A stretch of 64,000 nt of DNA from Zingiber officinale. Its lineage: Eukaryota; Streptophyta; Magnoliopsida; Zingiberales; Zingiberaceae. Position numbers and translations under genes: made by a program. The notes below the pieces were generated by a model. That model was not told the origin of the DNA. It ran no database searches and saw only the letters and a program-made list of their open reading frames with translations. Location: assembly GCF_018446385.1 (NCBI RefSeq), contig NC_056002.1, positions 4,761,474 through 4,825,473 of the forward strand, given 5' to 3'. Of the stretch, positions 6,969 through 57,226 are shown piece after piece (the first letter of the stretch is position 1; each line of letters begins with the position of its first letter).

Positions 6969-15647
<8,679 letters not shown>

Positions 15648-28921: not shown

Positions 28922-30553
28922 CGTTGGTGTAATTTCCAGTAGGTCAAGGTTGACCTAGTTGACCAAGCGTAAACCTTGGTCATGGTTTCGATGTTTGACA
29001 ATACAGAAAGACATGTAGACATGGACAATGCAGGTGCAGTTGTCCATGCGGAGAGATACTGATCAGGGTCTGATCAGGTTGGATGAAGAAGAGTCAAGTA
29101 GGTCAAGGTTGACCGGATACTTGACTGGGAAGTCCTAACTGGGATGTTAGGCAGTTCGGAAAGTCCTGGTGAGTGAAGCCAGGCAGTGGGAAAGTCCTGG
29201 TGAGTGAAGCCAGGCAGTGGGAAAGTCCTGGTGAGTAAAGCCAGGCAGTTGGAAAGTCCTGGTGAGTGAAGCTAGGCAGTGGGAAAGTCCTGGTGAGTGA
29301 AGCCAGGCAGTTGGAAAGTCCTGGTGAGTGAAGCCGGGCAGATTGGAAATCCTGGTGAGTGAAGCCAGGTGAAAACCCTAGTGAGTGAAGCTAGGTGAAA
29401 GTCCTGGTGAGTGAAGCCGGGCAAGGGAAAATCCAGATGGATCAAGGGTGATCGGACATCTGGTGTTGAGAAGGTCAAGTAGGTCAAGGGAGTGACCGGA
29501 TACTTGACACGAAGAGAAAAGTCCAAGTGGGTCAAAGGGATTGACCGGACACTTGGTAGGGAGCCTTAGCAGGTCAAGGGAGTGACCAGATGCTAAGCAT
29601 GAGATACCAATAGGTCAAGGTTGACCGGATATTGTTTTGGAAGGTTTGGGACTTGGTTTGGGCAAAAACCAAGCTCTGGATCGATCTGGGGACCGATCCA
29701 GTGATACGGCTGATCGGTCTGGTGACCGATCAGTAATCAAACAGAATGCTTCTGTGGATTATCTGATCGGTCTGAAGACCGATCAGGAAGCAAACAGAAG
29801 AGAAGAAGGAGAAAGGCTGATCGGTCAAAGGGACCGATCAGACCCCTCCTGGACCGATCAAGACATAGCCTGATCGGTCCAGGCTTAGCCTGATCGGTCC
29901 CCAAGACCGATCAGGACCCTTGTGGACCGATCAGGATGAACCCTGATCGGTCCACATCCTAGCCGTTGCCTAGCAATGGCTAGTTTCTTCTGTGTCTTCT
30001 TCGCATGTTATAAAAGGGGTTGAGGAGCTACTGTTCTGGGGTTACTACTTCCTTCTTGCCCTTGCTTCTTGCTGCACTTGAGCTTTGCTGAGCTCTCTGC
30101 TTCGTGAAGCTTCGTGTGAGCTGGTCAGCTGCTGCTGTTCTTCTGTGAAGTTGCTGCTTCATCAACGGAAACCAGTCGAAGGCAAGCGTGTTTGTTTTTA
30201 CATTCATATCGTTGCTTCTTCTTGTATTTCTTGTACACTCTGATCTTGCTGTTGCAAGAAAGTATTGTGGCGAGGTTTCTCCACCCACAAGGAGTATTTA
30301 TTAGCCGATTCTCCGGGGACTCATCCACCGACGGATTGATAGGCTTCGTCCACCTTATGGACACGCCGAGGAGTAGGAGTATCATCTCCGAACCTCGTTA
30401 CATTGTCGAGTTCGAGTTTGAGGTTTGATCTTTCCTTTTTACGTTTCTATTTAGCTATTTCCGCTGCGCTAACCCTAATCGTAGGAAGAAACGGAAGATT
30501 TGGGGTCGGCTATTCACACCCCTCCTCTCTAGCCACGATCATCGATCCTATCA
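28922..30553 (+). mobile_element. 5' LTR of element A (1632 bp)
   Basis: Starts CGTTGGTG (first base C where the 3' LTR has T) and ends CCTATCA. Holds about nine AAGTCCTGGTGAGTGAAGCC units (about 29155-29430), the palindrome cluster GATCGGTC..GACCGATC (29676-29956) and a TATA box (TATAAAAG, 30009-30016). Confidence 0.93.
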
Positions 30554-30555
30554 AG

Positions 30556-30567
30556 TGGTATCAGAGC
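30556..30567 (+). promoter_or_regulatory. Primer binding site of element A
   Basis: TGGTATCAGAGC, two bases after the LTR end; complementary to the 3' end of initiator methionine tRNA, the usual copia primer. Confidence 0.9.
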
Positions 30568-30615
30568 AAGGTTGCTCTTCGTCGGATTAACACCCGGGGG
30601 AGCACAAGCTAGAGA

Positions 30616-32088
30616 ATGGATCGACTCGGAGAAGACATCACGTTTCCACCATTCTACGAGTGCTGCAACTTCGCGTATTGGAAGGTAAGAATGAGGTATT
30701 TTCTTATGACTAACCTTGAAAATTGGAGTTGTGTTCAATTAGGTTTCAAGTCTCCGATGGACAAGAAAGGAGAAACCCTAGAGAAGAAGGAGTGGACCAA
30801 GGAGCAAATCCACCAATCAACCATCAATGATGAGGTAACGAAAATCATTGAATTTTCTTTACCTAATGACATTTTGTGTAGGATAGGTGGTTACAACAAT
30901 GCCAAGGAATTGTGGAACAATTTGGCCAAGTTCCATGAGGGGAGCTCCACTTCAAGTCATGAAGAGGAGTCAAGTGAGCTGAGTAGCTCACTTCATGAAG
31001 ATGTGGATTTAGAAGTTGAGGGCCACTCAACATCTAAAGAAGAAGAGGAGGAGAGTTCTTCTTCAAGTTCGGAGCAAGAAGAAGCTTCTACCTCCGGAAG
31101 GGATGAAGGAGAGAGCGTTCATCCATCCTCACCTCTAGGTAATTCAAGTCATTTAGTTTCTAGCAAATTACACATAATGTGCTTTGAGTATAGGGAATTT
31201 GGGCACTACAAGAGTAAGTGTCCAAAGAGGATTAGAAAGACTCCACCGACGCCAAAGATCAAGGAAGTCGGAGTCCCGATACGCAAGAGCAAGGAGCACG
31301 TGGTGTGCTTCCAATGCAAGCGAAGGGGACACTATAGGAGCCAATGTCCGAGGGGGAGGCAATCTCACAAGGACAAGAGATCGAGCACACGTATAAGGGG
31401 AGCTAGGGCAAACCCTAAGGTAATATCTAAGGCACATTCTTGCAATTCTAGTAGGATGCATGCTAGTAGCCTTATTGCTATTGTCAAGAATGATAAGCAT
31501 GTTAATTATAGGAATCAATATACATGCTTAGGTGCCAAACATGTGAGCCTAGATGAGGATAACACTAGGAAAGCCAACCCTAGGACTAACTCATCTAAGG
31601 CTAAGGAGAACCTAGGTAGAAATCCCAAATCAACTAGACACATGCCTAGGAATACCTCCAAGAAAAATGAAAAATTAAAAATTGAGGTATTAGAGCAGGA
31701 GAATCAAGTCTTGAGGTCAAGACTTGATACTTTGGAAAAGGCTCTTAAGAACTTGGAGAAGTCATCTCTAGGGTTTAAGGGTCAAAAACCAATGTCCAAG
31801 GACAAGAAAGGTTTGGGTCACAAACCTAAGTCTCAAGTGGTCAAGCCCACTTATCACAATGTTCCATTTGATTATGGAACAAGACCTAGGGCTAGAAAGA
31901 CCATCACCAAGGTCACAAGGGGAGTCACCCCTAGAGTGGATCTTGATGAGTCCCAAATGACCAAGGCTTCAAAGCCTAGGAGGGTCATTAGGAGGGTTGC
32001 TAGGGAAGTTATCCCTAGTGAATATTTAGTGAACCCAATGAGCTCTAATAGGTATTGGGTTCCTAGGAGCATCTTCTCTACCCCATAG
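30616..32088 (+). CDS. Gag protein of element A (490 residues)
   Basis: Copia-type capsid/nucleocapsid polyprotein. The N-terminal gag domain (DUF4219/UBN2-like, about residues 1-115, with FPPFYECCNFAYWKVRMRYF) is followed by an acidic Ser/Glu tract (about 115-175) and two zinc knuckles. The first (CFEYREFGHYKSKC) has Tyr for the second Cys; the second (CFQCKRRGHYRSQC) is intact. Then come a basic linker, a coiled coil (QENQVLRSRLDTLEKALKNL) and a C-terminal segment ending RYWVPRSIFSTP. Copia polyproteins carry a similar WVPKS segment just before protease; here a stop follows. The frame is fully open. It presumably forms particles using enzymes from another element. The degenerate first knuckle may weaken RNA binding. 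Confidence 0.9.
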   Translation: MDRLGEDITFPPFYECCNFAYWKVRMRYFLMTNLENWSCVQLGFKSPMDKKGETLEKKEWTKEQIHQSTINDEVTKIIEFSLPNDILCRIGGYNNAKELWNNLAKFHEGSSTSSHEEESSELSSSLHEDVDLEVEGHSTSKEEEEESSSSSSEQEEASTSGRDEGESVHPSSPLGNSSHLVSSKLHIMCFEYREFGHYKSKCPKRIRKTPPTPKIKEVGVPIRKSKEHVVCFQCKRRGHYRSQCPRGRQSHKDKRSSTRIRGARANPKVISKAHSCNSSRMHASSLIAIVKNDKHVNYRNQYTCLGAKHVSLDEDNTRKANPRTNSSKAKENLGRNPKSTRHMPRNTSKKNEKLKIEVLEQENQVLRSRLDTLEKALKNLEKSSLGFKGQKPMSKDKKGLGHKPKSQVVKPTYHNVPFDYGTRPRARKTITKVTRGVTPRVDLDESQMTKASKPRRVIRRVAREVIPSEYLVNPMSSNRYWVPRSIFSTP

Positions 32089-33367
32089 ATGGGTTAGAGA
32101 GTGTCAACTCCGATTAGAAGGGTAGTTAACCCAACTTTGAGGAAATTGACACTCAAGGAACATTTTCAAGGTTTTGTGAATCTTTGAAAATGAAATGAAT
32201 CTATCATTTACTCCTTGAAGAGTAAATTGTGCCATATTTGAAAAAAAAAAATATATCAACTTTAATCTTTATTGGCACAAGTTAGGAAAACCTAGAGAAA
32301 TACCAAGTTGGGGTCTTGGTACTCTCTTAGGAATTTAAGACAGTCTAGGCCCTGATTAAAAAGGTGTTATTCTTGAGGAAATATGAAATATGCCAATATT
32401 TGAGGATATACTTAATGTTAAGTGGCATAAATTAATCAAGAAAAATAGGAATGCCAACTTAGGTTTGGGCATTTTCTTGAAGCACTTTGAGCAATCTAGG
32501 TTTAGATTTTAAGTTAGCTAAGGTGTTAAGGATACTTAGATAGGTAATCTAGGTATTTTATTTGTGCTAACTTACCATGGTTGTTTTCCATATACCATGC
32601 CATGACATCATGTTTAACTTATTATCATTCGAAATGTCATGATAATGCTTAGGCTAATTATATGTCATGCTTATTTTAAGTTTTATACTTTATGCCATGA
32701 CATCATGAAATTGGAACATGCTTCTATTTATGACATCATTTTATGCCATGTCATAATCTCTTGCATTAATAATCAATGAAATTGATTTAAGGATAAAAAC
32801 ACAATTTGATATTGAGATCAAATTGGTGTTTAGAAAATGCATGAGAACTTAGCCTAAGATAACCTAAACCTATATCTCACATCAAAATTGACTTGGATGT
32901 GTTTGATACACTTTAGATGTGTGTGAGATTTTAGAATCATGAGTTAGGATCAAGGTACATAGTTCTTGTACCTAGATGAACCTAATTCAAGAGATTGGGG
33001 ATCATAGGGAAAGCTTATGTACAAGTCATGTACATATAGCCCAAAGATTGTGGTTCCAAATTAAAGGGTTTAAAATCATTTCAAAATTGATTTGAAAAAC
33101 CTTGATGAAGCTTTTCTGGTGATAGCATTCATCATTGAGCAAATTGATACACAGTTGAGGTAAACTTGAACTATTTCAAAGTTTTTGAACTTTGTATCAA
33201 GATTTGAAAATGGAAGTTATTTTCATAGAAAACTATTTTTCCTTGATAGTATATGTTATGAGGAATGTATCCTCAAATTTTCATAATTTTTCGAATTTTC
33301 TGTGATTTTCTAGAGGTTTCTGAATTTCGGAAGGAGAAAAATCAGAAACTTCTGATATCATAGTTGT

Positions 33368-33473
33368 GGACCGATCAGAAGGGAGTCTGATCGGTCCAGG
33401 TCTGTGTGGATCGGTCACTGTGACCGATCCAGGGGAGTCCTGATCGGTCTGGTGACCGATCAGCGCGTGCCAA
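33368..33473 (+). repeat. Internal palindrome cluster of element A
   Basis: Repeats of GACCGATCAG and CTGATCGGTC in opposite orientation, the same words that fill the element A LTR at 29676-29956, here in the non-coding part between gag and the 3' LTR. Confidence 0.9.
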
Positions 33474-34099
33474 CTTGCTGATTTTCGACTGTTTTGTCTG
33501 AAATTTTAGCTAGGAGTTGGTGTTTTGGATTTCTAAAGGTTTGAAACTCTCCAAGATATTGTTGGTGCAATGGTCAAGGGGGAGTTGACCTTTAGGGGGA
33601 GTTTTACCTATTAGTCAAGGGGGAGTTGACTTTTAGGGGGAGTTTTTACTCCTAAAGACTTGAGTGATATAGGATTATCACTAAGTTGATTGTTGACTTT
33701 AGTATCAAGGGGGAAATTAAGGGTTTCAATGAAAGGTATGGGACTTTCATTAGGAAGAAACTCTTGAACTTGATTCACTCCTTTTTTTTTTGATGTGTGT
33801 CAAAAAGGGGAAGAATGTCTAGAGAATGTTCAAGGAAGAACATTGGAGTTAGTGGGAGAGTTTGTTGATCACGACGAGTGAAGTTGTGAACAACGATAAC
33901 TTACTCTTCAGGGGGAGAGTTTGTTGATCTGTGCCAATAGGGGGAGAATGAAGGGTTTAAGTTAGGCCTTCATTATCTAAGAAGGAGGTTGCCTTCTTAG
34001 AAGGAGAATGTAAGGTTGTAACTTATGTTTCATTACCTAGTGGCGTGAGGAAAGTTGAGGCTATTGAATTAGCCTAACTTAAAGGTATTGTCAAACATC

Positions 34100-34113
34100 A
34101 AAAAGGGGGAGAT
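34100..34113 (+). promoter_or_regulatory. Polypurine tract of element A
   Basis: AAAAAGGGGGAGAT immediately before the 3' LTR; plus-strand DNA primer site. Confidence 0.85.
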
Positions 34114-35662
34114 TGTTGGTGCAATTTCTAGTAGGTCAAGGTTGACCTAGTTGACCAAGCGTAAACCTTGGTCATGGTTTCGATGTTTGACAATACAGAA
34201 AGACATGTAGACATGGACAATGCAGGTGCAGTTGTCCATGCGGAGAGATACTGATCAGGGTCTGATCAGGTTGGATGAAGAAGAGTTAAGTAGGTCAAGG
34301 TTGACCGGATACTTGACTGGGAAGTCCTAACTGGGATGTTAGGCAGTTCGGAAAGTCCTGGTGAGTGAAGCCAGGCAGTGGGAAAGTCCTGGTGAGTGAA
34401 GCCAGACAGTTGGAAAGTCCTGGTGAGTGAAGCCGGACAGATTGGAAATCCTGGTGAGTGAAGCCAGATGAAAACTCTAGTGAGTGAAGATAGGTGAAAG
34501 TCCTGGTGAGTGAAGCCGGGCAAGGGAAAATCCAGATGGATCAAGGGTGATCGGACATCTGGTGTTGAGAAGGTCAAGTAGGTCAAGGGAGTGACCGGAT
34601 ACTTGACACGAAGAGAAAAGTCCAAGTGGGTCAAAGGGATTGACCGGACATTTGGTAGGGAGCCTTAGCAGGTCAAGAGAGTGACCAGATGCTAAGCATG
34701 AGATACCAATAGGTCAAGGTTGACCGGATATTGTTTTGGAAGGTTTGAGACTTGGTTTGGGCAAAAACCAAGCTCTGGATCGATCTGGGGACCGATCCAG
34801 TGATACGGCTGATCGGTCTGGTGACCGATCAGTAATCAAACAGAATGCTTCTGTGGATTATCTGATCGGTCTGAAGACCGATCAGGAAGCAAACAGAAGA
34901 GAAGAAGGAGAAAGGCTGATCGGTCAAAGGGACCGATCAGACCCCTCCTGGACCGATCAAGACATAGCCTGATCGGTCCAGGCTTAGCCTGATCGGTCCC
35001 CAAGACCGATCAGGACCCTTGTGGACCGATCAGGATGAACCCTGATCGGTCCACATCCTAGCCGTTGCCTAGCAACGGTTAGTTTCTTCTGTGTCTTCTT
35101 CGCAGGTTATAAAAGGGGTTGAGGAGCTACTGTTCTGGGGTTACTACTTCCTTCTTGCCCTTGCTTCTTGCTGCACTTGAGCTTTAATTGAGCTCTCTGC
35201 TTCGTGAAGCTTCGTGTGAGCTTCCCCGGTTGGTCAGCTGCTGCTGTTCTTCTGTGAAGTTGCTGCTTCATCAACGGAAACCAGTCGAAGGCAAGCGTGT
35301 TTGTTTTTACATTCATATCGTTGCTTCTTCTTGTATTTCTTGTACACTCTGATCTTGCTGTTGCAAGAAAGTATTGTGGTGAGGTTTCTCCACCCACAAG
35401 GAGTATTTATTAGCCGGTTCTCCGGGGACTCATCCACCGACGGATTGATAGGCTTCGTCCACCTTACGGACACGCCGAGGAGTAGGAGTATCATCTCTGA
35501 ACCTCGTTACATTGTCGAGTTCGAGTTTGAGGTTTGATCTTTCCTTTTTACGTTTCTATTTAGCTATTTCCGCTGCGCTAACCCTAATCGTAGGAAGAAA
35601 CGGAAGATTTGGGGTCGGCTATTCACACCCCCCCTCTCTAGCCGCGATCATCGATCCTATCA
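34114..35662 (+). mobile_element. 3' LTR of element A (1549 bp)
   Basis: Starts TGTTGGTG and ends CCTATCA. Very similar to the 5' LTR, but with six instead of about nine tandem units and about 10 bp inserted near 35224. TATA box at 35108-35115. Confidence 0.93.
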
Positions 35663-35820: not shown

Positions 35821-36790
35821 TGTTGGAGCAATCCCAATGGTCCGTGTGATCATGTGTTTTGGTGTTTGGGCAAAAGGTTTAAGTTAGGTTTACCCTTGTT
35901 ATTTGATATATGTATGTGAGTATACAGATTTGCAGGATACATATATGACTCAGCTTGATGGCTTCGGGTCTGGTGAAGGATGGAGCATCTGAGGGACCGT
36001 GGACAAGGCAGCAAGGACAAGGGCCGAGGGAAGCGACTTCGAGGCATACGCGAAGGAGGGCATTGGGGACAAGTCACGGGCTTGGATGCATCCTAGGGAC
36101 GAGAGCCAAAGGAAGTAGGCTTGAAGGCAAGAGGTCAAGGCTGCAAAGAAGAGTCAAGTGAATCATGAGGGTACGAGTGCATGAGAGATTGTACTTGGAA
36201 AAAAATCTTGATGGGTGTTGTAGCAGTCAACGGGGTATTGTAGCAGGCAACGACACTGTAGCAATATTGTAGTAGTCGACTTGTAGAGAGCCGTTGGGCT
36301 GGCACCAGTCGACTGGTGCAAGGACCAGTCGACTGGTAACGGTAAAACAGCAGGGTTGTTTTCTTCTAAACTCTATAAGAAGGAGATTGGGATAGCTGGC
36401 CAAGGTGACGAAATTTGATTTGGTTAAAGCCTTATTAGTAGTCACCAAAGTGCTCAAGATTCTCTTGTGTCCAAGTGTTCTTGGTTGGTGTTGTGGTGAG
36501 GTTTCTCCACCCACAAGGAGTTGCTTGAGTAGCTGGAGTTTGTCGGGGGCTAATCCACCGAAGGATTGAGATAGTCCACCTTATAGACAGCCGTGAAGTA
36601 GGAGCAAGTTATCTCCGAACCACGTTACATTGGCGTGTATTGGTTTGCATTTCCTTTCTTTGTCTTTAGCTTTTGTATTCGTATTTAGTTTTGTATTATT
36701 CCTCTGTGCAACTAACGAATACATAGGAAGTGATCAATTTGGAGGTGTCGTTCATTCAACCCCCTTCTAACCGGCCACTGATCTCCTACA
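35821..36790 (+). mobile_element. 5' LTR of element C (970 bp)
   Basis: Starts TGTTGGAGC and ends TCCTACA. The palindrome ACCAGTCGACTGGT occurs at 36303-36337, then a TATA box (36374-36380). Differs by eye from the 3' copy far more than the LTRs of A do, so C is older. Confidence 0.9.
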
Positions 36791-36844
36791 AGTGGTATCA
36801 GAGTGGGGCCGCTCTCCTTCGAACTAACCGCCGAGGAAGCAAAG

Positions 36845-38425
36845 ATGACCGGCTTGATAGATCTGCCAAAGTTTGAAGGAGGAAGCTTATGGGACATCAC
36901 CTTTTAGATGGTGAAGATGAAGAACTTCTTCGAAACGGATTGAGACACAATGATGATGGTGGAAGAGTCATTTGAAGTCCCGAAGGACAAGAAAGGGAAG
37001 AAGTTTCAACCACGACATTGGACGGACGAGCAAACCACACGATCGGAGGTAAATTCAAAGGTAATATCAATTTTAATTGATATATTACCTAATGACGTTG
37101 TGAGTCATGTAAGTAAATATGAGAATGCTCACGAATTGTGGAGCAAAGTGAAGAAAGTTCTAGGAGAAGAACTTTTGCCTACACATGAAGAGGTAGAGCC
37201 CAAGGAGATGAGTTCAATTGCTCAAGTTGAGGAGAAGCAACCGGAAGTTGAGTCATGCTCAACATCCGAGGAGGAGAAGGAAGATGAGGCATCATCTACA
37301 TCCTCAAGAATTGAAGAAGATTCCAAGATGGATGAAGAAGAGGTCTTGGAGGTCAACTTAGTGAGTGTGTTCACCAAAGTCAAATCTAAGAACCATATTG
37401 TGTGCTTCGGTTGCAATGAGAAGGAACATTACAAGAGTAGATGTCCTTTGCTCAAGAAGATAAAACCTAAATCCACTCAAATTATTTTAGATACTAATGT
37501 GGGTTGTAGAAATGATGGTGTCAAGAAGAAGAAGGAGAAGAAACACATTAGATGCTTCACGTGTGGTGAAATGGGGCACTACCACACAAAATGCCCAAGG
37601 AATGGAGAGTTCAAGAAGTTGGAGCAATTAAAGAAATGAGAGAAGAAGAAGAAGAAGAGCTCGAGTCTAGGGGGAGCTTCAAGGGTAAGGGAGGTATACC
37701 CTAATTTGAATCATAATTCAAATATTTATACTCCCATGCATGCTAGAAATAATTTTCATTATTTGCCCGTGCATAACTTCAGTTTTAGATATCATGATAG
37801 AAGTAGGGTTAATGTAGATCAAAACCCTAAGGTACTTACTCATGATAAAATTGGTAATGGTAGACCTAAGGAGACCCAAGGCATTAATCCCAAGAAGGAG
37901 AGACATATGCCTAGAAAAATGGATAGGTCTAGAAATGTCCATGGTGGATATGTTGACTCTAGGTTTAGGAACCTAGAAAGGGAAAATCAAGCTTTGAAGT
38001 CAAAGCTTGATAATTTGGAGAAATTCCTTAAGAGATTCACTATTGGATCTAAGGGTTTAGATATGGTGTTGGGTAGCCAAAAATCCAACAACAATAGATC
38101 AGGTTTGGGATACCGATCTAATGTCTTTGATGCTAAGGAAAAGTCTTATGCTAGGGTTGCATATGATTATAGCAAGGAGAAGTCAATAAATGGCAAGGGA
38201 AAACCATTTAAAGGTAAGACTAAATTAACCAAGGACAAGGTGTCCAAGGTTAAGAAGGTTAGGTTTGTAGGCCAAGTGTCACCGGAGGTGCACCAATGTG
38301 TCCTAGTGATTGTAGATGAGTCACTTAGGGAGGTGGCTAAGGCTAAGGGCTCTAGGGGGAGCTCAAAGAGTCAATTTGGGACCCATGACAAATGGATCTC
38401 AGGTGGGTACTACTTGGGAGTCTAG
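36845..38425 (+). pseudogene. Gag of element C, single frame with three stops
   Basis: One frame from ATG 36845 to 38425, broken by TAG (about 36908), TGA (about 36944) and TGA (37637-37639). It opens MTGLIDLPKFEGGSLWDITF, has two intact zinc knuckles (CFGCNEKEHYKSRC and CFTCGEMGHYHTKC), a basic linker, a coiled coil (LERENQALKSKLDNLEKFL) and ends near HDKWISGGYYLGV. Its order matches the gag of element A. Stops without frameshifts suggest gradual decay. Confidence 0.85.
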
Positions 38426-38854
38426 AGGAGCCATGGAGTGTGCCAAATGGTTTGGAGACGGACTTGAGTCTCAAACCTAGGGATTTGGCACACATGGTTT
38501 GTGTTTCATGCAAGAAATATGACATTTGGGGTCATATACCATGATAATTAGTTTTGGATGTATATATGTTATATAAACCAATGTTAGAGATGTATTATGG
38601 GTTGGTATGGGCAAATACATCAAGAAGAAGCCAAAACTAGCACTTTAAGTCAAGGTTCAATTGAATCATTTAGTTAGTTTTGGATTTTATGTCAATATTG
38701 GGATTGGTGATAGATACATTTTGTAATGTATTTTTCCCAAGTAGACACTAGTAAAACAGACCTCTCCACAAAATTTGGGAATTTTTGGAAGTCTGTAAAA
38801 TTTTTGGTGCATTTCTGAAATTGGTCAGAAAAGATTATTTTTTTCAGAAATAGG

Positions 38855-39042
38855 ATACCAGTCGACTGGTACAGATACCAGTCGATTGGTAATAATATTT
38901 TTGAGCACAGAATATCTCTGTAAGCTCATTTCGTCGATACCAGTCGACTGGTAACAGTAGATTTCGAACACAGAATGCTTATGTGTGTTGATTTCAATAG
39001 GGGCAGTCCACTGGTACCAAGGGGCAGTCCACTGATACCAGT
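38855..39042 (+). repeat. Internal palindrome cluster of element C
   Basis: Repeats of ACCAGTCGACTGGT and variants, the same palindrome as in the C LTRs (36303-36337 and 50834-50900), in the non-coding part between gag and the 3' LTR. Confidence 0.9.
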
Positions 39043-39212
39043 CTAAACTTATTTTTCAGTGCTGTTTTTGACCATGTCAACTTGTTTAGATGTATGAGAT
39101 CTATGAGGGATAAATACATGAGTTTAGGGTCAGTTTGGACGACAAGTGTTCAACAATTGAGATATTGTTGGAGAGCTTTTTGAATGTTAGGAAAAGGGGG
39201 AGCAGTAAGGTA

Positions 39213-40125
39213 TGTTGGAACCCCAAGGTGTTTTGATGTGATCAAACAAGCTAAGTTAGGTCCTGTGTTTGTTTAACCCTTGTGTCTAAGTGTGCAGGAG
39301 CTTATGAACACAGGAAGTCGAGCGGAAGACGCGGCTAGCGAGAAGGACGGCACGGGAGAGAGCCGACGGGCTCGGTGCGTCTGAGGGATGAGGTGACCGC
39401 GGAAGAGTACACTGGTGGACGAGAAGAGCGTGCGCAGCGCTCGAGGGACGAGAAACCGGGAAGGAAGGCTGCTCGAGGAGAAGGCCGGAACATGGGTTCG
39501 GGTGAGCCCTATTCCGGAAGGCCGAGATCACCCAAGCTAGTGGAGCCAGAGCGAACAAACCCGGACCAAAGACAAGCCGAACTGAGACGAGCTGAACCGG
39601 AGCAGAGAGCCTGGACCAGAGTCAACTTTGTTGACTTGACAGGTCCGGGCGCCTGAATCAATTCCAAGCGCCCGGACCTCCGGGCGCCCGGGGGTTCATA
39701 TTTGACCAGATCGAAGCTGATCGCGAGCTGACCGTTGGGGGATAAAATTTATCCCCCCGGGGGCGCCCGGAACCCCTTCCAGGCACCCGGACCAGTACTA
39801 TAAATAAAGTACTGATCTGTACATTCAAGTACAACTACTTGTAATCCAGTGCTTTCATTTGTGTTATTTCTTTCTGTGCTTTCAACGTTGTAAGAGGCTA
39901 CTCCGCCCAGAGGAGAATCAATTAGTGCGCCTTCTTTGCCTTGGATTAGCAATCCTCTGATTGCAAACCAAGTAATTCCTCTGTGTCTACTTTCTGTCTT
40001 AATTAGTCTCTGCCTTTTTAATTACAAGTTCTTTTAAGTTAGTTGAATATCCGAGAAGGGTTTTTGGTTTTATTTTGCAGGGCAATTCACCCCTCCCCTC
40101 TTGCCGGCCTCCAAAGGGACCTACA
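39213..40125 (+). mobile_element. Solo LTR inside element C, TSD AGGTA
   Basis: 913 bp, TGTTGGAACC to ACCTACA, with AGGTA at 39208-39212 and 40126-40130. Related to the T/B LTR (shared GAGCTTATGAACACAGG region), but its palindrome is CCGGGCGCCCGG (39640-39791) rather than the GGCGCC words of T. TATA box 39799-39806. Confidence 0.92.
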
Positions 40126-40499
40126 AGGTATAGCTGGAAAAACCTTAAGTGTCTTTGCGTAGAAGGAGCCTTATGATAGGTTCTTAAATATCCCAGTAGG
40201 AAAATCCTAAAATCCTAGCCTATTGGGGAGCTTAGGTGTAGGGGGAGCCTTTTGATAGGTTCCAATGCATGTTGCATTTTGTTTCGGCAGTGTAAGTCCA
40301 AGTGTGTAGCCTTGGCAACGTAAGTCCATTCGGTAGTGTAAATCCAAGTGTATAGCCTTGGCAACGTAAGTTCATTCGGCGATGTAAGTCCAAGTGTGTA
40401 GCCTTGGCAAAGTAAATTCATTGTTTCTTTTTAGCATGTTTATTTGCTATATGTTTTCCCTAACTTAAACGTATTGTCAAACATAAAAAAGGGGGAGAT

Positions 40500-40942
40500 T
40501 GTTGGAGCAATCCCAATGGTCCGTGTTATTATGTGTTTTGGTGTTTGGGCAAAGGGTTTAAGTTATGTTTACCCTTGTTATTTGATCTGTATATGTGAGT
40601 GTACAGGTTTGCAGGATATACATATCACTCAGCTTGATGGCTTCGGGTCCGGTGAAGGATGGAGCATCCGAGGGACCGTGGACATGGCAACAAGGACAAG
40701 GGTCGAGGGAAGCAACTTAGAGGCATACGCGAAGGATGGCATTGGGGACGAGCCGCGAGCTTGGATGCATCCGAGGGACGAGAGCCAAAGGAAATAGGCT
40801 TGAAGGCAAGAGGTCAAGGCTGCAAAGAAGAGTTAAGTGAGTCGTGAGGGTATGAGTGCATGAGAGATTGCACTCGGGAAAAAATCTCGATGGGTACTGT
40901 AGTAGTTAACGATACTGTAGCAGCCAACGACATTGTAGTAGT
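40500..40942 (+). mobile_element. 3' LTR of element C, piece 1
   Basis: Begins TGTTGGAGC after the polypurine tract and is interrupted at 40942 by element E; bases 40938-40942 (GTAGT) are E's target duplication. Confidence 0.9.
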
Positions 40943-43624
40943 TGTTAGAGTGTATACTAAAAGCCTAGCTTTTGGTATAAATATTTATCTAGAAATAAAA
41001 ATCACATTGGTCAAATGTCTACATTTATGATAAATGAAGTTGTTCAATTAATTTATATTGTAGATAACATGGTGTGTGGTGTCACACACAGAGGATCATG
41101 TTATCAGTACCTTATAAATTATAAACAGTAGCTCACGACCATAATGGAAAGGAACAAACCATTGGAAGGTCGTAGTGTAATTAGGTATTAGTTTATCTTA
41201 ACTATATAATTACACTAGTACACTTAGAGTGTATTGAGTAGGACCATTAGAGGTCATTTCTTTTATACTGACTTTATAAAGAAATAAAGACCTCAGTTAT
41301 TATGGAAGTGTGTGCTCTTAATCCTAATATAATAACAAGCACATATATTTGATATTTATTTCTTTAATTTATCAATGGGTGAGATTTAGTTCGATGAATC
41401 AATAAGCCCGATAAGTTGGGAAATGATATCACTTATAGTGTGTGTTGTTGATTATAGAAGGAAACTGTGTCCTAGTGATCTAGGTTGAGAATGTCCCCAA
41501 GAGGAGCTCATAAGGATTATCATGTTAAACCCTGCAGGTGGACATAGTCCGACATGACGATGAAGTTGAGTGGTACTACTCTTGGAGCTAGATATTAATT
41601 AAGTGAGTTGTCAGTAACTTACTTAATTAGTGGACATTTGTTATCTTAAACACAGGGAGACTAACACACTCATAATAAGAAGGAGCCCAAAATGTAATTT
41701 GGGATTGGTGCGGTAGTTCAATAATAGTTCTTTAGTGGAATGAATTATTATTGATGAAATTAAGTTGTGTGTTCGGGGCGAACACGGGATGCTTAATTTC
41801 ATCGGGAGACCAAAACCAATTCCTCCTCTCGGTCCCTATCGTAGCCTCTAGTATATAGAGATTTATACCCACCGCATACCCACCTTCTTACCCATCCAAT
41901 GGGGCCAGCCAAGCTAGCTTGGAACCCAAGCTAGGGCCGGCCAAGACCAAGTGGATGAGTAATGTAGGTGGTCGGCCAAAGCTTGGGTCCCAAGCTTAGG
42001 TGGCCGGCCACTAGAATATTAAAAGGATTTTTATTAAAATTATTTCTTATGTGGATATCATGATTTTAAAAGAGAGTTTAAAAATTAAAAATTTTCCTTT
42101 TATAACTTTCTACAAAAGATTAAGAGAAGAGATTAATCTCTTTCCTTATTTGTAGATTAAAAGGATGATTTTAATTTTTGGTAAAAACTTTCCTTATTTG
42201 TAAATCATCTACATGTTTAAAAGAGAGTTTAAAATTTGAAATCTTTCCTTATTTGTTGATTAAAGGAGGATTTTAAATTTTAAGAAAACTTTCCTTTTTA
42301 ACCATGTTTATGATTTAAAAGAAAGTTTAAAAATTAATAATTCTCTTTTATTAGTTTCTACAAAAGATTGAGAAAAGATTTGATATCTTTCCTTATTTGT
42401 AGATTAAAAGAGATTTTAATTTTTAGAGATAACTTTCTTTTTATCTAAATGTTTAAAAGAAAGATTTTAATTTATTAAATTTCTTTTTTATAAACCAATC
42501 ATGAAGGGATTAAATTATTGAAGAAATTTTATAAATTTCTGGAGACAAATTAGGAAGTTTTAATTAATTAAAACTCTCCTTGTTTGTAGCTTTGGTGTGG
42601 CCGGCCATGTAAATTGAGAAAAGGAAAATTGTTTTAATTAAATAAATTTTTCCTTTTCATGGCAAAAGAATTAAGGAAGGTTTTAATTAAATTTCCTTAT
42701 TTGCCAAGACCAAGGATTATAAAAGAGGGGGTAGAGAAGGCTTCATGAAAAAGAACCTCTATTATTTCTCTCTCTCTTTTCCTTGGTGTTGTGGTCGGCC
42801 AACCTCTCTTCCTCTCTTCCTCTTGGTGGTGGCCGAACCTTCTCTATTGGCTTGGAGCTCTTGTGGTGGCCGGATACTACTTGGAGAAGAAGAAGAAGGA
42901 GGAGAGAAAGCTTGTATCCCTTGGAGCTTGGTTGGTGTTTTGTTCTTCGTCCTCGGTGAAGCTTCTTTGTGTTGGCCGAACCTAGCTAGGAGGAGAAGAA
43001 GGTGCTTGGTGGTTTCTCATCTCGGAAGATCGTTGCCCACACAACGTCCGAGGTTAGAAGAGGAATACGGTAGAAGATCAAGAGGTCTTTCTAAAAGGTA
43101 TAACTAGTAATTTTTCTTTCTGCATCATGCTAGTTATTTATGGAAATAATACCAAATACAAGAGGCTTACGATTCTAGAATTTCGAATATGTTTTTCGAT
43201 GTTGTGTTCTTTTATTTTTCTTTTCCTTGTGATTTGATTGTTCTTTTCGGTTAACCTAAAGTTATTTTAGGAAATTAAATATTAGATTTCTATAAAAGGT
43301 TTTGTCTAGTCGGTGGTGGTTGCTCCCATATCCAAGAAGGCCGTGTGCCTCGCCACGTCAGTACTGGGAACCGATTATGGAAATTAATATTTAATGGAAT
43401 TAATAACTTAAGGTGATTTGGGTCGAACGTGTTAAGTTCCGCAGGAGATCCAAGTCAAAACCTAAAAGAACAAATAGATTAAGTTTTGGATCAAACGTGT
43501 TAAGTTCCGCAGGCGATCCAAAATTTAATTTAAAAGAACACATGGTAGCTAGGAAAAGGTTCAGACCTTTTGTACAAAATTTTTGTACAGTGGAACCTCT
43601 AGGCTTTCCGAGTAGCAACCAACA
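40943..43624 (+). mobile_element. 5' LTR of element E (2682 bp)
   Basis: TGTTAGAGTG to CCAACA. GGCCGGCC/AAGCTAGCTT-type palindromes at about 41905-42015, a TATA box near 42717 (TATAAAAGAGGG), and an open frame 42745-43107 shared with the other LTR. Confidence 0.93.
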
Positions 43625-47660: not shown

Positions 47661-48146
47661 AGGGACAATAATAAAGTCAACCTCGGGGTTTTGTGTTTAC
47701 TTTAGGAGGTAAAGTCATAACTATGGAAGAGTGATAAGCATATGTGTTTTTCTAGACTCCACCATAGAAGTTTAGTATATGGCAAGCCTCTGAGGTAGCC
47801 ATAAAAGCTGAATGACTCAATAACCTCAAGATAGACTTATATATGATTTCTGGTTTGTCCAAAGATTATTACAATTTATTGTAATAATATTGGTGCAGTA
47901 GCAAACTCGAAGAAACCATAAGTCTATAAAGGCAAGTAAACACAATAGAGCGCAAGTACCACCCAATACGAGAAATCGTATAAACGAGGAGAAGTTGTTG
48001 CTGCCTAGAATGCAGCAGATGATGACCTATAGATCTTTTCACTAAGGTCCTTAAGGCGAGAGATTTTGATGGACATGTTGAAGGGTTGGGAATCAGATGT
48101 ATGACAGCAGATATGGCAGCTTAGTCTTTTAGTATAAGTGGGAGAT

Positions 48147-50820
48147 TGTTAGAGTGTATACTAAAAGCCTAGCTTTTGGTATAAACATTTATCTAGAAAT
48201 AAGAATCACATTGGTCAAATGTCTACATTTATGATAAATGAAGTTGTTCACTTAATTTATATTGTAGATAACATGGTGTGTGATATCACACACAGAGGAT
48301 CATGTTATCAGTACCTTATAAATTATAAACAGTAGCTCACGACCATAATGGAAAGGAACAAACCATTGGAAGGTCGTAGTGTAATTAGGTATTAGTTTAT
48401 CTTAACTATATAATTACACTAGTACACTTAGAGTGTATTGAGTAGGACCATTAGAGGTCATTTCTTTTATACTGACTTTATAAAAAAACAAAAACCTCAG
48501 TTATTATGGAAGTGTGTGCTCTTAATCCTAATATAATAACAAGCACATATATTTGATATTTATTTCTTTAATTTATCAATGGGTGAGATTTAGTTCGATG
48601 AATCAATAAGCCCGATAAGTTGGGAAATGATATCACTTATAGTGTGTGTTGTTGATTATAGAAGGAAACTATGTCCTAGTGATCTAGGTTGAGAATGTCC
48701 CCAAGAGGAGCTCATAAGGATTGTCATGTTAAACCCTGCAGGTGGACTTAGTCCGACATGACGATGAAGTTGAGTGGTACTACTCTTGGAGCTAGATATT
48801 AATTAAGTGAGTTGTCAGTAACTTACTTAATTAGTGGACATTTGTTATCTTAAACACAGGGAGACTAACACACTCATAATAAGAAGGAGCCCAAAATGTA
48901 ATTTGGGATTGGTGCGGTAGTTCAATAATAGTTCTTTAGTGGAATGAATTATTATTGATGAAATTAAGTTGTGTGTTCGGGGCGAACACGGGATGCTTAA
49001 TTTCATCGGGAGACCAAAACCAATTCCTCCTCTCGGTCCCTATCGTAGCCTCTTATATATAGAAATTTATACCCGCAACATACCCACCTTCTTACCCATC
49101 CAATGGGGCCGGCCAAGCTAGCTTGGAACCCAAGCTAGGGCCGGCCAAGACCAAGTGGATGAGCCAAGTTGGTGGCCGGCCAAAGATTGGGTCCCAAGCT
49201 TAGGTGGCCGGCCACTAGAATATTAAAAAGGATTTTTATTAAAATTATTTCTTATGTGGATATCATGATTTTAAAAGAGAGTTTTAAAATTAAAATTTTC
49301 CTTTTATAACTTTCTACAAAAGATTAAGAGAAGAGATTAATCTCTTTCCTTATTTGTAGATTAAAAAGGATGGTTTTAATTTTTGGTAAAAACTTTCCTT
49401 ATTTGTAAATCATCTACATGTTTAAAAGAGAGTTTAAAATTTGAAATCTTTCCTTATTTGTTGATTAAAAGGTGGATTTTAAATTTTAAGAAAATTTTCC
49501 TTTTTAACCATGTTCATGATTTAAAAGCAAGTTTAAAAATTAATAATTCTCTTTTATTAGTTTCTACAAAAGATTGAGAAAAGATTTGATATCTTTCCTT
49601 ATTTGTAGATTAAAAGAGATTTTAATTTTTAGAGATAACTTTCTTTTTATCTAGATGTTTAAAAGAAAGATTTTAATTAAAATTTCTTTTTATAAACCAA
49701 TCATGAAGGATTAAATTATTGAAGAAATTTTATAAATTTCTGGAGACAAATTAGGAAGTTTTAATTAATTAAAACTCTCCTTGTTTGTAACTTTAAGGTG
49801 GCCATGTAAATTGAGAAAAGGAAAATTGTTTTAATTAAATAAATTTTTCCTTTTCATGGCAAAAGAATTAAGGAAGGTTTTAATTAAATTTCCTTATTTG
49901 CCAAGACCAAGGATTATAAAAGAGGGGGTAGAGAAGGCTTCATGAAAAAGAACCTCTATTATTTCTCTCTCTCTTTTCCTTGGTGTTGTGGTCGGCCAAC
50001 CTCTCTTCCTCTCTTTCTCTTGGTGGTGGCCGAACCTTCTCTATTGGCTTGGAGCTCTTGTGGTGGCCGGATACTACTTGGAGAAGAAGAAGAAGAAGGA
50101 GAGAAAGCTTGTATCCCTTGGAGCTTGGTTGGTGTTTTGTTCTTCGTCCTTGGTGAAGCTTCTTTGTGTTGGCCGAACCTAGCTAGGAGGAGAAGAAGGT
50201 GCTTGGTGGTTTCTCATCTCGGAAGATCATTGCCCACACAACGTCCGAGGTTAGAAGAGGAATACGGTAGAAGATCAAGAGGTCTTTCTAAAAGGTATAA
50301 CTAGTAATTTTTCTTTCCGCATCATGCTAGTTATTTATGGAAATAATACCAAATACAAGAGGATTACGATTCTAGAATTTCGAATATGTTTTTCGATGTT
50401 GTGTTCTTTTGTTTTTCTTTTCCTTGTGATTTGATTGTTCTTTTCGGTTAACCTAAAGTTATTTTAGGAAATTAAATATTAGATTTCTATAAAAGGTTTT
50501 GTCTAGTCGGTGGTGGTTGCTCCCATATCCAAGAAGGCCGTGTGCCTCGCCACGTCAGTACTGGGAACCGATTATGGAAATTAATATTTAATGGAATTAA
50601 TAACTTAAGGTGATTTGGGTCGAACGTGTTAAGTTCCGCAGGAGATCCAAGTCAAAACCTAAAAGAACAAATAGATTAAGTTTTGGATCAAACGTGTTAA
50701 GTTCCGCAGGCGATCCAAAATTTAATTTAAAAGAACACATGGTAGCTAGGAAAAGGTTCAGACCTTTGTACAAAATTTTTGTACAGTGGAACCTCTAGGT
50801 TTTCCGAGTAGCAACCAACA
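48147..50820 (+). mobile_element. 3' LTR of element E (2674 bp)
   Basis: Near-identical to the 5' copy; TGTTAGAGTG to CCAACA. Confidence 0.93.
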
Positions 50821-51351
50821 GTAGTTACTGTAGCAGTCGACTGGTAGAGAGTTGTTGGGCTGGTACTAGTCGACTGGTGCAAGGACAAGTCGATTGGTAA
50901 TGGTAAAACAATAGGGTTGTTTTCTTCCAAGCTCTATAAGAAGGAGCTTGGGATGACTGGTCAAGGTGATGAAATTAGACTTGGTTAAAGGCTAATTAGT
51001 AGTCACCAAAGTGCTCAAGGTTCTCTTGTACCCAAGTATTCTTGGTTGGTGTTGTGGTGAGGTTTCTCCACCCACAAGGAGTTGCTTGAGTAGCTGGAGT
51101 TTGCCGGGGGCTAATCCACCAAAGGATCGGGATCACCCACCTTATGGACAGCCGTGGAGTAGGAACAAGTTATCTCCGAACCACGTTACATTGACGTATA
51201 TTGGTTTGCATTTCCTTTCTTTGTCTTTAGCTTTTGTATTCGTATTTAGTTTTGTATTATTTCGCTGTGCAACTAACGAATACATAGGAAGCGATCGATT
51301 TGGGGGCGCCGTCCATTCAACACCCTTCTAGCCGGCCACCGATCCCCTACA
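50821..51351 (+). mobile_element. 3' LTR of element C, piece 2
   Basis: Resumes after E's duplication GTAGT (50821-50825) and ends CCCTACA at 51351. Holds the ACCAGTCGACTGGT cluster (50834-50900). Confidence 0.9.
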
Positions 51352-51571
51352 CATTCTTCTCGTCCACCGGTGTACTCTTCCGCAGCTCTTTCGTCCTTCG
51401 GACGCACCGAGCCCGTCGGCTCCCTTCCCGTGTCGTCCTTCTCACTAGCTGCGTCTTCCGCTCAACTTCCTACACTCCTAAGTTCTTGCACACTTAGACA
51501 CATGGATCAAATAACAAGCAGGACCTAACCTAACTTGGTTGATCATATCAAAACACTCACGGGGTCCAACA
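51352..51571 (-). mobile_element. 3' LTR of element B, piece 3 (5' start)
   Basis: On the minus strand it begins TGTTGGACCCCGTGAG at 51571, just after the polypurine tract of element B (plus-strand CTCCCCCTTTTT at 51574-51585). Pieces 1-3 sum to about 890 bp, matching the T LTR. Confidence 0.85.
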
Positions 51572-53718: not shown

Positions 53719-53724
53719 TGTTGG

Positions 53725-56414
53725 AATATAACTTTCAGTTTATCAAAAACTTCTGCATATAACTTGAGTCGATCACTGCTAATCTCGAAATTGCCCGATA
53801 ATTGTTGTGCTACCAGCTGAGAATCAGAATAAATCCATACTCGAGCAGCCCCCAAATGTCGAGCTGCTTGTAAACTAGCTATCAATGCTTCATATTCTGT
53901 TTCATTGTTGGTGGCTCTGTAACTTAGCCGAACGGAGAGTTGAACCCGGTCATCTCTTGGGGATATAAGAAAAATACCGATACCACTACCTTGTCTGGTA
54001 GCAGACCCATCTACATAAATTTTCCAAGTCTCTTCTTCTTTGGGACCTTGAACTTCTATTATAAAATCTGCCACAGCTTGTGCTTTAATTATCGAACGAG
54101 GCTGATACTGTATATCGTATTCACTAAGCTCGGTTGTCCACTTGATCAGTCGCTCGGATGCTTTTGGATTAAGGAGCACTCGACCGAGAGTGCTATTAGT
54201 TAGTACTATGATTGCGTGTGATAAGAAGTAAGGGCGTATTCTTCTAGCGTTCAAGACCAACGCATAAACTAATTTTTCGAATGTAGTATACCTACACTCA
54301 GCTCCTTTTAATAAATGACTGGAAAAATATGTTGGTTGTTGTTCCTTACCCTCCTGCCTCACCAGTGCTGAGCCTATAACATACTCATTTGCTGAAAGAT
54401 AGACCCATAAGATTTTTCCTACTACAGGCTTAGCTAACACAGGTAGGGTTGATAAATAATTTTTCAATTCTTGAAATATGTTATTGTATTCTTCATCCCA
54501 CTAAAATTTATTGGCCTTCCGAAATATCTTGAAGAAGTGAAAACTTCGGTCGGCTGATCGAGAGATGAAGCGGGATAGCGCAGTAATTCACCCAGTCAAT
54601 CTTTGAGCTTCTTTCATATTGCGTGGGGGCTCTATATCCTGGATTGCTCGAACCTTGTTAGGATTTGCTTCTATCTCTCACTCTGTCACCATATAGCCCA
54701 GGAATTTACCACTTCTGACTCAAAACAAGCACTTGCTAAGATTGAGCTTGAGTCCATATTGTCTTAAGGTTCGGCATGTTTCCTCTATATCTCTGCACAA
54801 ATCAACATCCTGAGGAGATTTAATCAAGATGTCATCCACATATATCTTCATATTTCTTCCTATCTGTTTCCGGAAGACTTTGTTCATAAGCCTCTGATAG
54901 GTTGCCCCTGCATTCTTTAGTCCAAAAGGCATAACCCTATAACAATAGGTACCTTCAGCTATAATAAAACTAATCTTTTCCTGGTCGTCCTTAGCAAGGG
55001 GTACTTGATGATAGCCCTAGTAGGCATCCAACATACAAATGTACTCGCATACGGCGGTAGAGTCCACCACTTGGTCAATGCGCGGCAGAAGATAGTAATC
55101 CTTTGGGCAAGCTTTATTGAGGTCTTGTAAGTCAATACACACTCTCCACTTATTTCCTGGTTTAGGTACCAGGACTACGTTGGCTAACTAGCTAGGAAAT
55201 TGTACCTTCCGAATATATCCCGCCTCCAGTAGCTTATCCACTTCTTCCTTGATGATCTGGTTCTGGTCGGCACCGAAGTCTCTTTTCTTTTGCTTGACAG
55301 GTCTAGCATCGGGATAAACATGTAATGAATGTTCCATTACTAGAGGAGAAATACCTGTGACCTCCTTGGGAGTCCATGCAAACACATCGCTATTCCGGCT
55401 CAAACACTGTATCAACTCAGTCTTGAGTGGGAGGTCTAAGTCGGCCGCCACATAAGTTACAGCTTCTGATTGCCCGGCCTGTATTTGTACCTCATCCTTT
55501 TCTTCGTATATCAAACTGGATGGTTTCTCCTGGATAGCATTAACTTCCATCCTTTGAGCTTTGCGGGCGACATTAGCCTCCGTTCGGATGATCTCCACAT
55601 AGCATTTCTGTGCGAGTAATTGATCTCTACGGACTTCTCCCACTTGGTCATCCACGGGGAACTTCACCTTCTGGCAGAAAGTAGAAACGACCGCTCGAAA
55701 CTCGTTGAAGGCCGGTCGACCCAGTATAACATTATATACAGAAGGTGCATCCGCCACCATGAAATAGGATATCCTGGTTCTCATTAAGGGCTCCTCCCCT
55801 AAAGAAATGACCAGTTTTATCTGGCTGAGTGGTTGCACTTCATTGCCCGTGAAACCATGGGTTGGAGCTCACACGGATCTATCTGCAACTGGTCAAAAGT
55901 TTTTTTGAAAATGATATTGACGGAACTACCAGTGTCAATGAAAGTATGGGAAATATTATAGTTAGCTATGACAACTTTTATTATCAGAGCGTCGTCATGG
56001 GGTACTTCTACTCCCTCCAAATTTTTAGGACCAAAACTAATCTCTGGCCCACTACTTTTTCTGTGTTGCATCCTACCGCATGGATCAGCAATCGCCGAGC
56101 ATGTGCCTTCCTTGCCCGATTAGAATCACCATCAGTAGGTCCGCCCGTTATCATATTAATATTTCCTCGGGTGGCATTGCTCCGGTTTTCTTCCTGTCGA
56201 GCAATCGCTATCTCGGGCTGTGCTGGTTCATGCACCCGGGATGACCCACCCGACAATTGCAATGCCCCCTGTTGTGTCTCAGTTGCCTGATATTCTCGCT
56301 TAGGCGGACTATTCTGCCTTTGGTAGGGTTGTCGGATGGGAGATCGCCGACGATAACGATTGTTATTTGTCCTATGGTTCCTCAAGGTAAAACAATCTTC
56401 AGTGTAATGAGTAC
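53725..56414 (-). pseudogene. Truncated Ty3/gypsy Tat element D: gag end, protease, RT, RNase H
   Basis: On the minus strand: the gag C-terminus (HYTEDCFTLRNH from about 56410); protease with TFIDTGSSVNIIF near 55930; a linker (NVILGRPAFNEFRAVVSTFC); reverse transcriptase with MPFGLKNAGATYQRLMNKVF (about 54870-54932) and YVDDILIKSP (about 54835); and RNase H with WKIYVDGSATRQGSGIGIFL (54030-53970) and IYSDSQLVAQQLSGNFE. Several stops and frameshifts. The second, YVDGSA-type RNase H domain is characteristic of the Tat lineage. Cut at 53725 by the deletion joint with element B and at 56414 by the insertion of element F. Integrase is missing. Confidence 0.85.
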
Positions 56415-57226
56415 TGATCCTGTCCGAACCAGGAGTCAACGGACGCTGGGGATGTGGCGCTCTCTGCTGGATCCTCGAATGCTCCGACGAACCTGCACAG
56501 AAGTCGGGCCGGGGAGATCCCGGCGACGACCCTGCGACGTTCAAGTCAGGCAAGGGAATAGGCGAAGAAGGTGGCTGCAGGATGAAGACTCACGTACCTT
56601 CGGTTGAAGAAGTGGAGGCCTTATATAGACCTCTCGAAGGAGCCTGGGCACACCAATCGAAGCAATCACCTGCTTTCGACCATGCCCAGGTGTAGGCCTG
56701 TCAGAAGGGCATCCATAAGACCATACTGTTGATACAATCACCTGCTCTCGACCATGCCTAGGTGTGGGCCTGTCAGAAGGGCATCCATAAGGCCATACCA
56801 CTACTGTATCAACCTTTCCGTGACGTGATGGTGGGGCCTTTAATAGTGCCATCTTGCGTACAGTCTAATCATCATGCCTTTGCTGACATACCATATCCCG
56901 AGCCGAGCGAATAGGCCGCTCGGCTAACCACTGTTCCCTTGCCACGATTCCGGCCGAGCGGACACCTCCGTTCGGCCATTCTGTCCTCGGCCGAGCGGAC
57001 ACCTCCCCTCGGCCACTCGGCTCCGGTTCTCCTTTGGCGTCGGAAACCCAAACCTTTGGCTGGGTAATCTCGGTTTCCGCTCGGACGGGACCCCATCTGT
57101 GGGTCCCCCATTCTTACCGCTGGATCACTTGCCTCCCCTTCAAGTCTAGTCGAAGGAGGCAGTGAGTCCGACTGACTGGACTATGTGTCTGAGCGGGCGG
57201 TCGTCGCCTTATCGATGCTGCTGACA
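56415..57226 (-). mobile_element. 3' LTR of Tat element F (approximate start)
   Basis: Ends GGACAGGATCA at 56415 (minus), joined to gag of element D. The start is placed at TGTCAG (57226) by comparison with element G and is uncertain. Contains CCGCTCGG/CCGAGCGG pairs (56898-57015) and a TATATAAGG box near 56620-56630 (minus). AGTAC at 56410-56414 may be the target duplication; its partner is outside the window. Confidence 0.6.

Follow-up and report, generated by a model that had tools for sequence, protein, structure and literature searches.

Why should neighbouring families of long terminal repeat (LTR) retrotransposons each carry palindromes of their own in front of the LTR promoter? The question is raised by a 64,000-nucleotide stretch of the ginger genome (Zingiber officinale, contig NC_056002.1, positions 4,761,474 to 4,825,473), referred to here as the window, in which LTR retrotransposons form a nest: element A lies inside LTR B, which is related to element T, and element E lies inside element C. 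An original prediction, made by reading the letters of the window, described palindrome clusters in every LTR family, and suggested binding sites for a partner protein, a fold-back RNA signal or an escape from silencing as their role. The palindromes it quoted are present where it had placed them; they are family-private, dyad-symmetric and changing between relatives. With somewhat more confidence than doubt, they can be read from the sequence as the repeated-motif (RM) boxes of Sireviruses, most likely double-stranded DNA sites for a dimeric factor that would control the LTR promoter, and among the three suggested roles protein-binding sites fit best.

Box arrays in the window

The arrays lie in the U3 region of the LTRs and, in elements A and C, also in the linker. 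The two linker clusters, inside A (33367-33463) and inside C (38856-39045), are additions to the original prediction. The arrays are as follows.

29676..29956, plus strand: element A, 5' LTR, U3: class A boxes (inverted pairs of ATCGGTC and GACCGAT), followed by TATA at 30009
33367..33463, plus strand: element A, 3' noncoding linker: class A boxes
34775..35055, plus strand: element A, 3' LTR, U3: class A boxes
36274..36337, plus strand: element C, 5' LTR, U3: class C boxes (CCAGTCGACTGG), followed by TATAAG around 36374
38856..39045, plus strand: class C boxes, some decayed, in the linker of element C
680..799, plus strand: T LTR, U3: class T boxes, in which symmetric arms flank GGCGCC
28734..28905, minus strand: LTR B, antisense, T-related and split by element A: class T boxes
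39645..39791, plus strand: T-related solo LTR within element C: GGCGCC boxes whose arms are CCG..CGG
3136..3485, minus strand: class A boxes in the antisense A-like LTR
11505..11995, minus strand: AATCGATT boxes (half-site ATCGATT, several with a 4-nucleotide spacer) in the intron LTR; minus-strand TATA at 11483-11488
41905..42015, plus strand: E LTR, marginal: short dyads together with two GGCCGGCC; the closest TATAAA found on the plus strand is at 42489
56898..57015, no strand assigned: Tat F imperfect dyads (CCGAGCGG / CCGCTCGG); significant; another superfamily, with gypsy-type domains nearby and no adjoining TATA

As had been proposed, the clusters lie mainly just 5' of TATA. Read from the sequence, the distance is about 52 bp in A, 36 bp in C and 30 bp in B, 16 bp in the intron LTR when counted from the border given in the original prediction, and at most 51 bp in T and 31 bp in the solo LTR. 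Boxes are absent from the 303 bp of T linker in view.

The number of palindromes rules out a chance origin. With a dyad defined by a stem of at least 8, a loop of 0-8 and an arm GC content of at least 0.3, the window holds 62 dyads, against a mean of 6.4 (standard deviation 2.4, maximum 14) in 100 dinucleotide shuffles of 500-bp blocks. Individual regions were each compared with 200 shuffles, counting those that reached the observed score. None did so for A U3, the A linker, the antisense A-like LTR, C U3, B, the solo LTR, the intron LTR, Tat F and E (with the borders of the original prediction), while one did for T, two for the C linker and two for E with wider borders. The palindromes of Tat G are not beyond chance (38 of 200 shuffles), so the claim of a cluster in every family stands for A, C, T/B, the solo LTR, the intron LTR and Tat F, is marginal for E and fails for Tat G. 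Among six control stretches, three score 0 (A R-U5, the PB1 gene and the inner E LTR) and the Tat internal region is at chance level (39 of 200). The remaining two, the 5' part of the A LTR and A gag, exceed every shuffle; dyads are therefore enriched in U3 yet not exclusive to it.

Two short motifs accompany the boxes. CCGTTG occurs close to TATA in classes A, C and D (29970-29990 in A, 36290-36297 in C, and U3 of sampled copies L037, L064 and L074); it is similar to the MYB3R / MSA core, and while the boxes change, this neighbouring site may stay constant. Near the A LTR start (28938-28957) and at further sites in the A LTR lie TTGACC motifs in inverted pairs (GGTCAAGGTTGACC), which are like W-boxes.

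Box classes and spacing across the genome

An exact 25-mer spanning the polypurine tract (PPT) and the LTR start has 4,439+4,484 occurrences in the genome. Fifty of its first 51 places on one contig were sampled, 30 with 1.5-kb and 20 with 2.5-kb flanks, one close neighbour being skipped; the pattern picks A-, C- and D-like elements with an intact junction and is not representative of all LTR families. Across these junctions the dyads form two main peaks, one in LTR/U3 at +400 to +1200 and one in the linker at -1100 to -400, with smaller peaks near the junction, against a shuffled background of at most 1.2 dyads per 100-bp bin summed across elements. The extra peak at the LTR start fits the PPT-flanking inverted repeat of a 2010 description (PMC2829016). 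Of 46 scored rows, 21 have a TATA-like hexamer no more than 250 bp from the cluster, at a distance of 9-92 bp; D-main rows mostly lack a canonical TATA, and two of three printed rows have TTTATAG or TTTAAAG some 20-30 bp on.

The sample contains three main box classes, A (ATCGGTC..GACCGAT), D (ATCGATC..GATCGAT) and C (CCAGTCGACTGG). That the sequences differ entirely between families proves an overstatement: the half-sites of A, D and the intron LTR are about one base apart, and the A, C, D and T cores each have a central CG. Three T copies (L081-L083) have GGCGCC boxes in U3 with symmetric arms that differ between copies; a further candidate, L084, is not a clean T copy. Classes A and D reach the eight or more U3 boxes shortly before TATA that are described for Sireviruses; copies of C and T frequently have fewer than eight perfect cores. 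An additional box type, ATCGGTCGACCGAAC, occupies +830 to +1210 of the LTR in L034; it amounts to effectively spacerless A half-sites and is near the grape Sirevirus motif CGGTCGACCG.

The half-sites are inverted and their spacing is narrowly set. Among sampled pairs within 0-14 nucleotides of each other (L031 and L034 left aside), a 4-nucleotide spacer separates the half-sites in 202 of 244 pairs of class D and in 15 of 19 of class A. Genome-wide, where about 12 matches are expected for 14 fixed bases in 3.09 Gb, ATCGATC-N4-GATCGAT occurs 239,928 times (control 117) and its N5 form 618 times (control 18), the D counts being somewhat inflated by GATCGATC runs. ATCGGTC-N4-GACCGAT occurs 160,091 times and its N5 form 19,596 times (control 0 for both). 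Forward and reverse counts are the same sites because the inverted patterns are their own reverse complements. The N4 and N5 counts therefore indicate a spacer that is nearly fixed in D and looser in A. In direct orientation, A half-sites with N4 number 285+333 (control 2+2) versus the 160,091 inverted pairs.

Sirevirus identity and published counterparts

Several hallmarks identify the elements. The PPT octamer AGGGGGAG is present seven times in the A linker (33577..34111, plus strand), three times in C and three times in the 303 bp of T; in the sample it averages 4.02 in the 600 bp upstream and 0.00 downstream, with at least two copies in 48 of 50, of which the extra copies alone are informative because the sample pattern already held the terminal octamer and AT/TG. 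An AT/TG junction follows the octamers, as in Sireviruses. Where Sireviruses have CA at the 5' LTR end, followed by ATTGG or AGTGG and then the primer binding site (PBS) TATCAGAGC, A reads CA-AGTGG-TATCAGAGC and C reads CA-AGTGG-TATCAGAGT, one base off. A C-rich integrase signal lies near the end of the LTRs (CACCCCCCC in A, CAACCCCC in C, CACCCCCC in T), and a 12-bp inverted repeat surrounds the terminal PPT in A (TTGTCAAACATC upstream, GATGTTTGACAA within the LTR). Judged by PPT, junction, PBS and LTR ends, the elements are Sireviruses of the Ty1/copia superfamily, sharing with those described in 2010 the multiple AGGGGGAG, the AT/TG junction, the TATCAGAGC PBS and the C-rich LTR end (PMC2829016).

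For Sireviruses, Bousios et al. (2010) described RM boxes: palindromes with an element-specific consensus, in at least eight copies, in the upper LTR shortly before TATA (PMC2829016). Since these were published in 2010, the palindromes of the window are of a described kind, and the statement that no such system was known gives way both to them and to the small-RNA hotspots at maize palindromes (PMC10760457). In the part of the 2010 account available, a regulatory role is suggested, a single common factor site was not found, and 12 of 13 cases carry a CGG-CCG signature from which Tnd-1 alone departs; linker boxes are given for some elements and for none of four ENV-less ones, and the table pools linker and LTR into one consensus per element, leaving a match implicit for nine elements (PMC2829016). 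Published motifs near the ginger boxes are ACAATCGATTGT of Tnd-1, CGGTCGACCG of Vitis and CGGTCAGACCG of Osr8 (PMC2829016). The CGG-CCG core recurs in class A, whereas D, C and T have ATCGAT, GTCGAC and GGCGCC cores instead, and the ginger genome differs further in holding several classes side by side with a near-fixed 4-nucleotide spacer. In elements A and C of the window, as in 13 of 20 long loci, there are linker boxes but no frame of ENV size is seen, old copies being broken; such elements may descend from ENV-bearing ancestors.

Two other systems invite comparison. A 2016 maize study, known here through a citing paper, found a small-RNA excess at Sirevirus LTR palindromes, and the citing paper proposes a tug of war between cis function and small-RNA targeting (PMC10760457). 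Like the ginger boxes, those palindromes are clustered in Sirevirus LTRs, variable in sequence and strongly folding by prediction; the evidence there is small-RNA mapping and here sequence alone, and the maize motif is CACCGGACNNNGTCCGGTG (PMC10760457, PMC5311732). The Tnt1 superfamily is likewise copia, with U3 diverging between subfamilies while the remainder stays alike, and factors induced by defence bind to its BII boxes; the U3 modules described in the parts of those reports available do not include arrays of palindromes that match between linker and U3 (PMC1838419, PMC3316501). Judged by title, none of four papers listed in a search of the Zingiber literature for retrotransposon inverted repeats and LTRs deals with such boxes.

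To what is available of the 2010 account, the ginger data add several box classes per genome, a near-fixed spacer and linker/U3 matching without recent copying, together with linker boxes where no ENV frame is seen, genome-wide orientation counts and strand-symmetry tests. What looks new is how closely each family's U3 box matches a second array inside the element.

Matching of linker and U3 arrays

Class scoring, which took in classes A, D and C only, was applied to 52 rows, namely the 50 sampled junctions and elements A and C of the window. Thirty-eight rows could be classed at both places and all 38 match; 12 are one-sided and 2 unclassed. The match of L031 was dropped, its linker boxes lying in a nested antisense LTR, which leaves linker and U3 in agreement as to box class in 36 of 36 scorable sampled rows and in element A of the window. 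If GGCGCC and CCGAGCGG are counted too, L044 and L034 become mismatches: the former has a nested antisense LTR with GGCGCC, the latter Tat sequence in its linker and a U3 of the ATCGGTCGACCGAAC type. Another LTR cuts U3 in L058 and L068; an E-type LTR lies within the linker of L051 and a T-type LTR within that of L077; and the class C linker boxes of L052 and L075 are decayed. L036, L038, L040, L072 and L079 are one-sided or empty without full explanation. In L077 the LTR begins as in the D-GGGG group and its U3 closely resembles that of L074, a class C element; on these sequences L077 is an apparent LTR recombinant.

In a tree of the 52 rows, a clade of four A rows (98/100) sits in a 33-row group (93/99) that is otherwise D, except for L077; the A rows L031 and L051 branch beside this group. 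The half-sites of A and D are one base apart, so that an element switching class must have made an identical change at about 15-25 half-sites, spread over two places. As the source of the match, recent gene conversion between the two arrays was considered and rejected, since a linker array aligns no better with its own U3 array than with those of other elements (70.2 vs 64.5, p=0.20, for 18 D main elements; 50.2 vs 54.0, p=0.63, for five D-GGGG; 42.0 vs 43.8, p=0.84, for seven C). In D main, moreover, the outer arms differ by place (linker GA/TC 24 and GG/CC 12; U3 GG/CC 47 and GA/TC 0; p=1.7e-10) despite an identical core and spacer; these arm and array counts come from related sequences. A putative reader shared by both arrays is the easiest explanation of a coordinated switch; alternatively, one array may, as a rare event, have been duplicated into the position of the other when the class switched.

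A proposed DNA site for a shared factor

The following mechanism would join these observations. The U3 dyad array just upstream of TATA would act as a promoter-proximal enhancer; in elements of classes A, C and D, the linker array, with the same box class, would be a second regulatory site. A dimeric DNA-binding factor would occupy each dyad as a double-stranded site, and the two places would change class together because both must match the same factor.

The symmetry of the boxes extends beyond their cores. Outer arms of D hairpins (177 unique) co-vary symmetrically at 0.83/0.78/0.76/0.66, against 0.49/0.49/0.55/0.50 when permuted. Those of class C palindromes (122 unique) do so more weakly, A pairs (36) show the same tendency and T (39) does so at the second position only; the sequences are related and hence not independent events. 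A single ATCGAT was rejected as the symmetric unit, its flank complementarity being 0.44 vs 0.49 permuted at the first position, though 0.46 vs 0.34 at the second.

Several results weigh against a shared dimeric factor. The arrays, their positions, the inverted half-sites, the spacer, the matching of classes, the symmetric co-variation and the absence of sense-strand bias are observed; we infer the factor, its dimeric nature, its enhancer action and selection as the cause of the pattern, and the factor is a candidate only. Because the sampled rows are related, as the tree indicates, just one or two independent class switches are visible. No linker array was found in the last 1.3 kb before the LTR in the three T copies (L081-L083). 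The symmetric co-variation of the outer arms exceeds what a dimer site needs and could stem from hairpin-templated copying. Loops are directional (AGTG 49 vs CACT 1, CGTG 41 vs CACG 1), which a symmetric site does not predict, and which descent by duplication would also give. By raw energy, U3 sense RNA is the more stable in 30 of 43 rows (p=0.001). Finally, neither purifying selection nor methylation protection is demonstrated: of 16 comparisons between arms and non-arms, two give a different ratio of shared to private variants (p=0.032 for non-CpG sites in D main U3, p=0.017 for CpG sites in the D main linker) and four show fewer variable sites in the arms (p between 1e-5 and 0.04), the latter count being biased because arms were partly defined by intactness; and private CpG changes per site are similar in U3 arms (0.35-0.50) and elsewhere (0.37-0.49) in four groups, the linker being mixed.

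Alternative explanations

The boxes may instead act as RNA hairpins, with read-through or genomic RNA folding at U3 and linker for packaging, for pairing of like RNAs or as a source of small RNAs, as proposed for maize Sireviruses. Predicted folding is strong (z about -8 to -9), on either strand alike; the loops, mostly 4 nucleotides in D and A, are directional; mismatches recurring in at least three elements are G.T in 6 cases, A.C in 2 and other in 2; and a small-RNA excess is reported at the maize palindromes (PMC10760457). The sense-strand preference seen in raw U3 energy does not survive control for composition, however: against shuffles the sense strand is not favoured in U3 (the excess averages +2.25 kcal, and 13 of 43 rows lean in the RNA direction; p=0.003) and the linker shows no sense-strand preference (p=0.83, 33 rows). 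Imperfect motif dyads show no wobble excess (G.T 36+44, or 80, vs A.C 42+65, or 107), whereas non-motif dyads lean to G.T in counts uncorrected for composition (25+22, or 47, vs 9+4, or 13), and class C boxes are loopless. Fold-back RNA, one of the roles first suggested, is thus unsupported by the strand-symmetry tests, although the maize work ties palindromes to small RNAs, and we consider it rather unlikely.

As a by-product of copying, inverted repeats would be made, perfected and spread by template switching during reverse transcription or repair, and would have no function. The arm symmetry beyond permutation, which comes with no RNA signal or clear constraint, agrees with such an origin, as do T relatives with different symmetric arms around one core. 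It does not by itself predict the two fixed locations next to TATA and in the linker, the preference in D for a spacer of 4 over 5, or a core shared by linker and U3 despite differing arms, and as a full account it seems improbable.

Least likely, in our view, the boxes are anti-silencing targets: by analogy with VANC and the VANDAL elements, they would recruit a protein specific to the element or the family, which would then strip off silencing marks. The VANDAL motifs are likewise family-private, short, dense in noncoding DNA and subject to joint turnover (PMC5735166, PMC10398659), and class matching at two places would suit such a role, but VANDALs are DNA transposons with a known element-encoded protein and single-orientation tandem motifs (PMC5735166, PMC10398659), whereas the ginger boxes are inverted, Pfam finds a zinc knuckle alone in the searched A and C frames, and the CpG changes give no sign of protection from decay.

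A more ambitious form of the favoured reading, a DNA site for a shared factor, is that the boxes are a family-specific recognition code at U3 and linker, read by a co-evolving trans-acting factor, with a lineage switching code in both arrays together. This is speculative and would hold only at long odds; if true, the code would be a copia counterpart of the VANC target system. A seemingly undescribed pattern now falls in the described Sirevirus class, and a single genome in which two classes together supply about 400,000 core dyads offers a direct test of whether such palindromes are promoter sites, silencing triggers or both.

Other features of the window

The elements that carry the arrays are placed as follows.

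About 28922-30553 and 34114-35662: LTRs of element A, with CTTCC on either side, inserted in the antisense T-related LTR (B)
35821-51351: element C, interrupted by element E and holding a T-related solo LTR
40942-50820: element E, inside element C
About 39213-40125: T-related solo LTR, inside element C
About 2532-4067: antisense A-like LTR
30613-32085 and 36944-38422: frames of A and C in which Pfam finds a zinc knuckle alone

The Pfam search covered three frames of A and C and gave a zinc knuckle in two and no match in the third. The internal regions of A and C are about 3.6-3.7 kb, and both look like gag-only elements that would need pol in trans. A 31-bp tandem repeat in the A LTR (29149-29434 and 34350-34468) counts 9.5 units in the 5' copy of the LTR but 3.8 in the 3' copy, so the length of this array varies within a single insertion. 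Outside the LTR elements, AT-rich DNA at 26720-26816 holds a perfect palindrome with a 48-bp stem and a 1-nucleotide loop that resembles a miniature inverted-repeat transposable element. At 60217-61752, a gypsy-type (Tat) element contains a 58-bp tandem array of about 24 units, and a related array is present in L034 at 68-83% identity.

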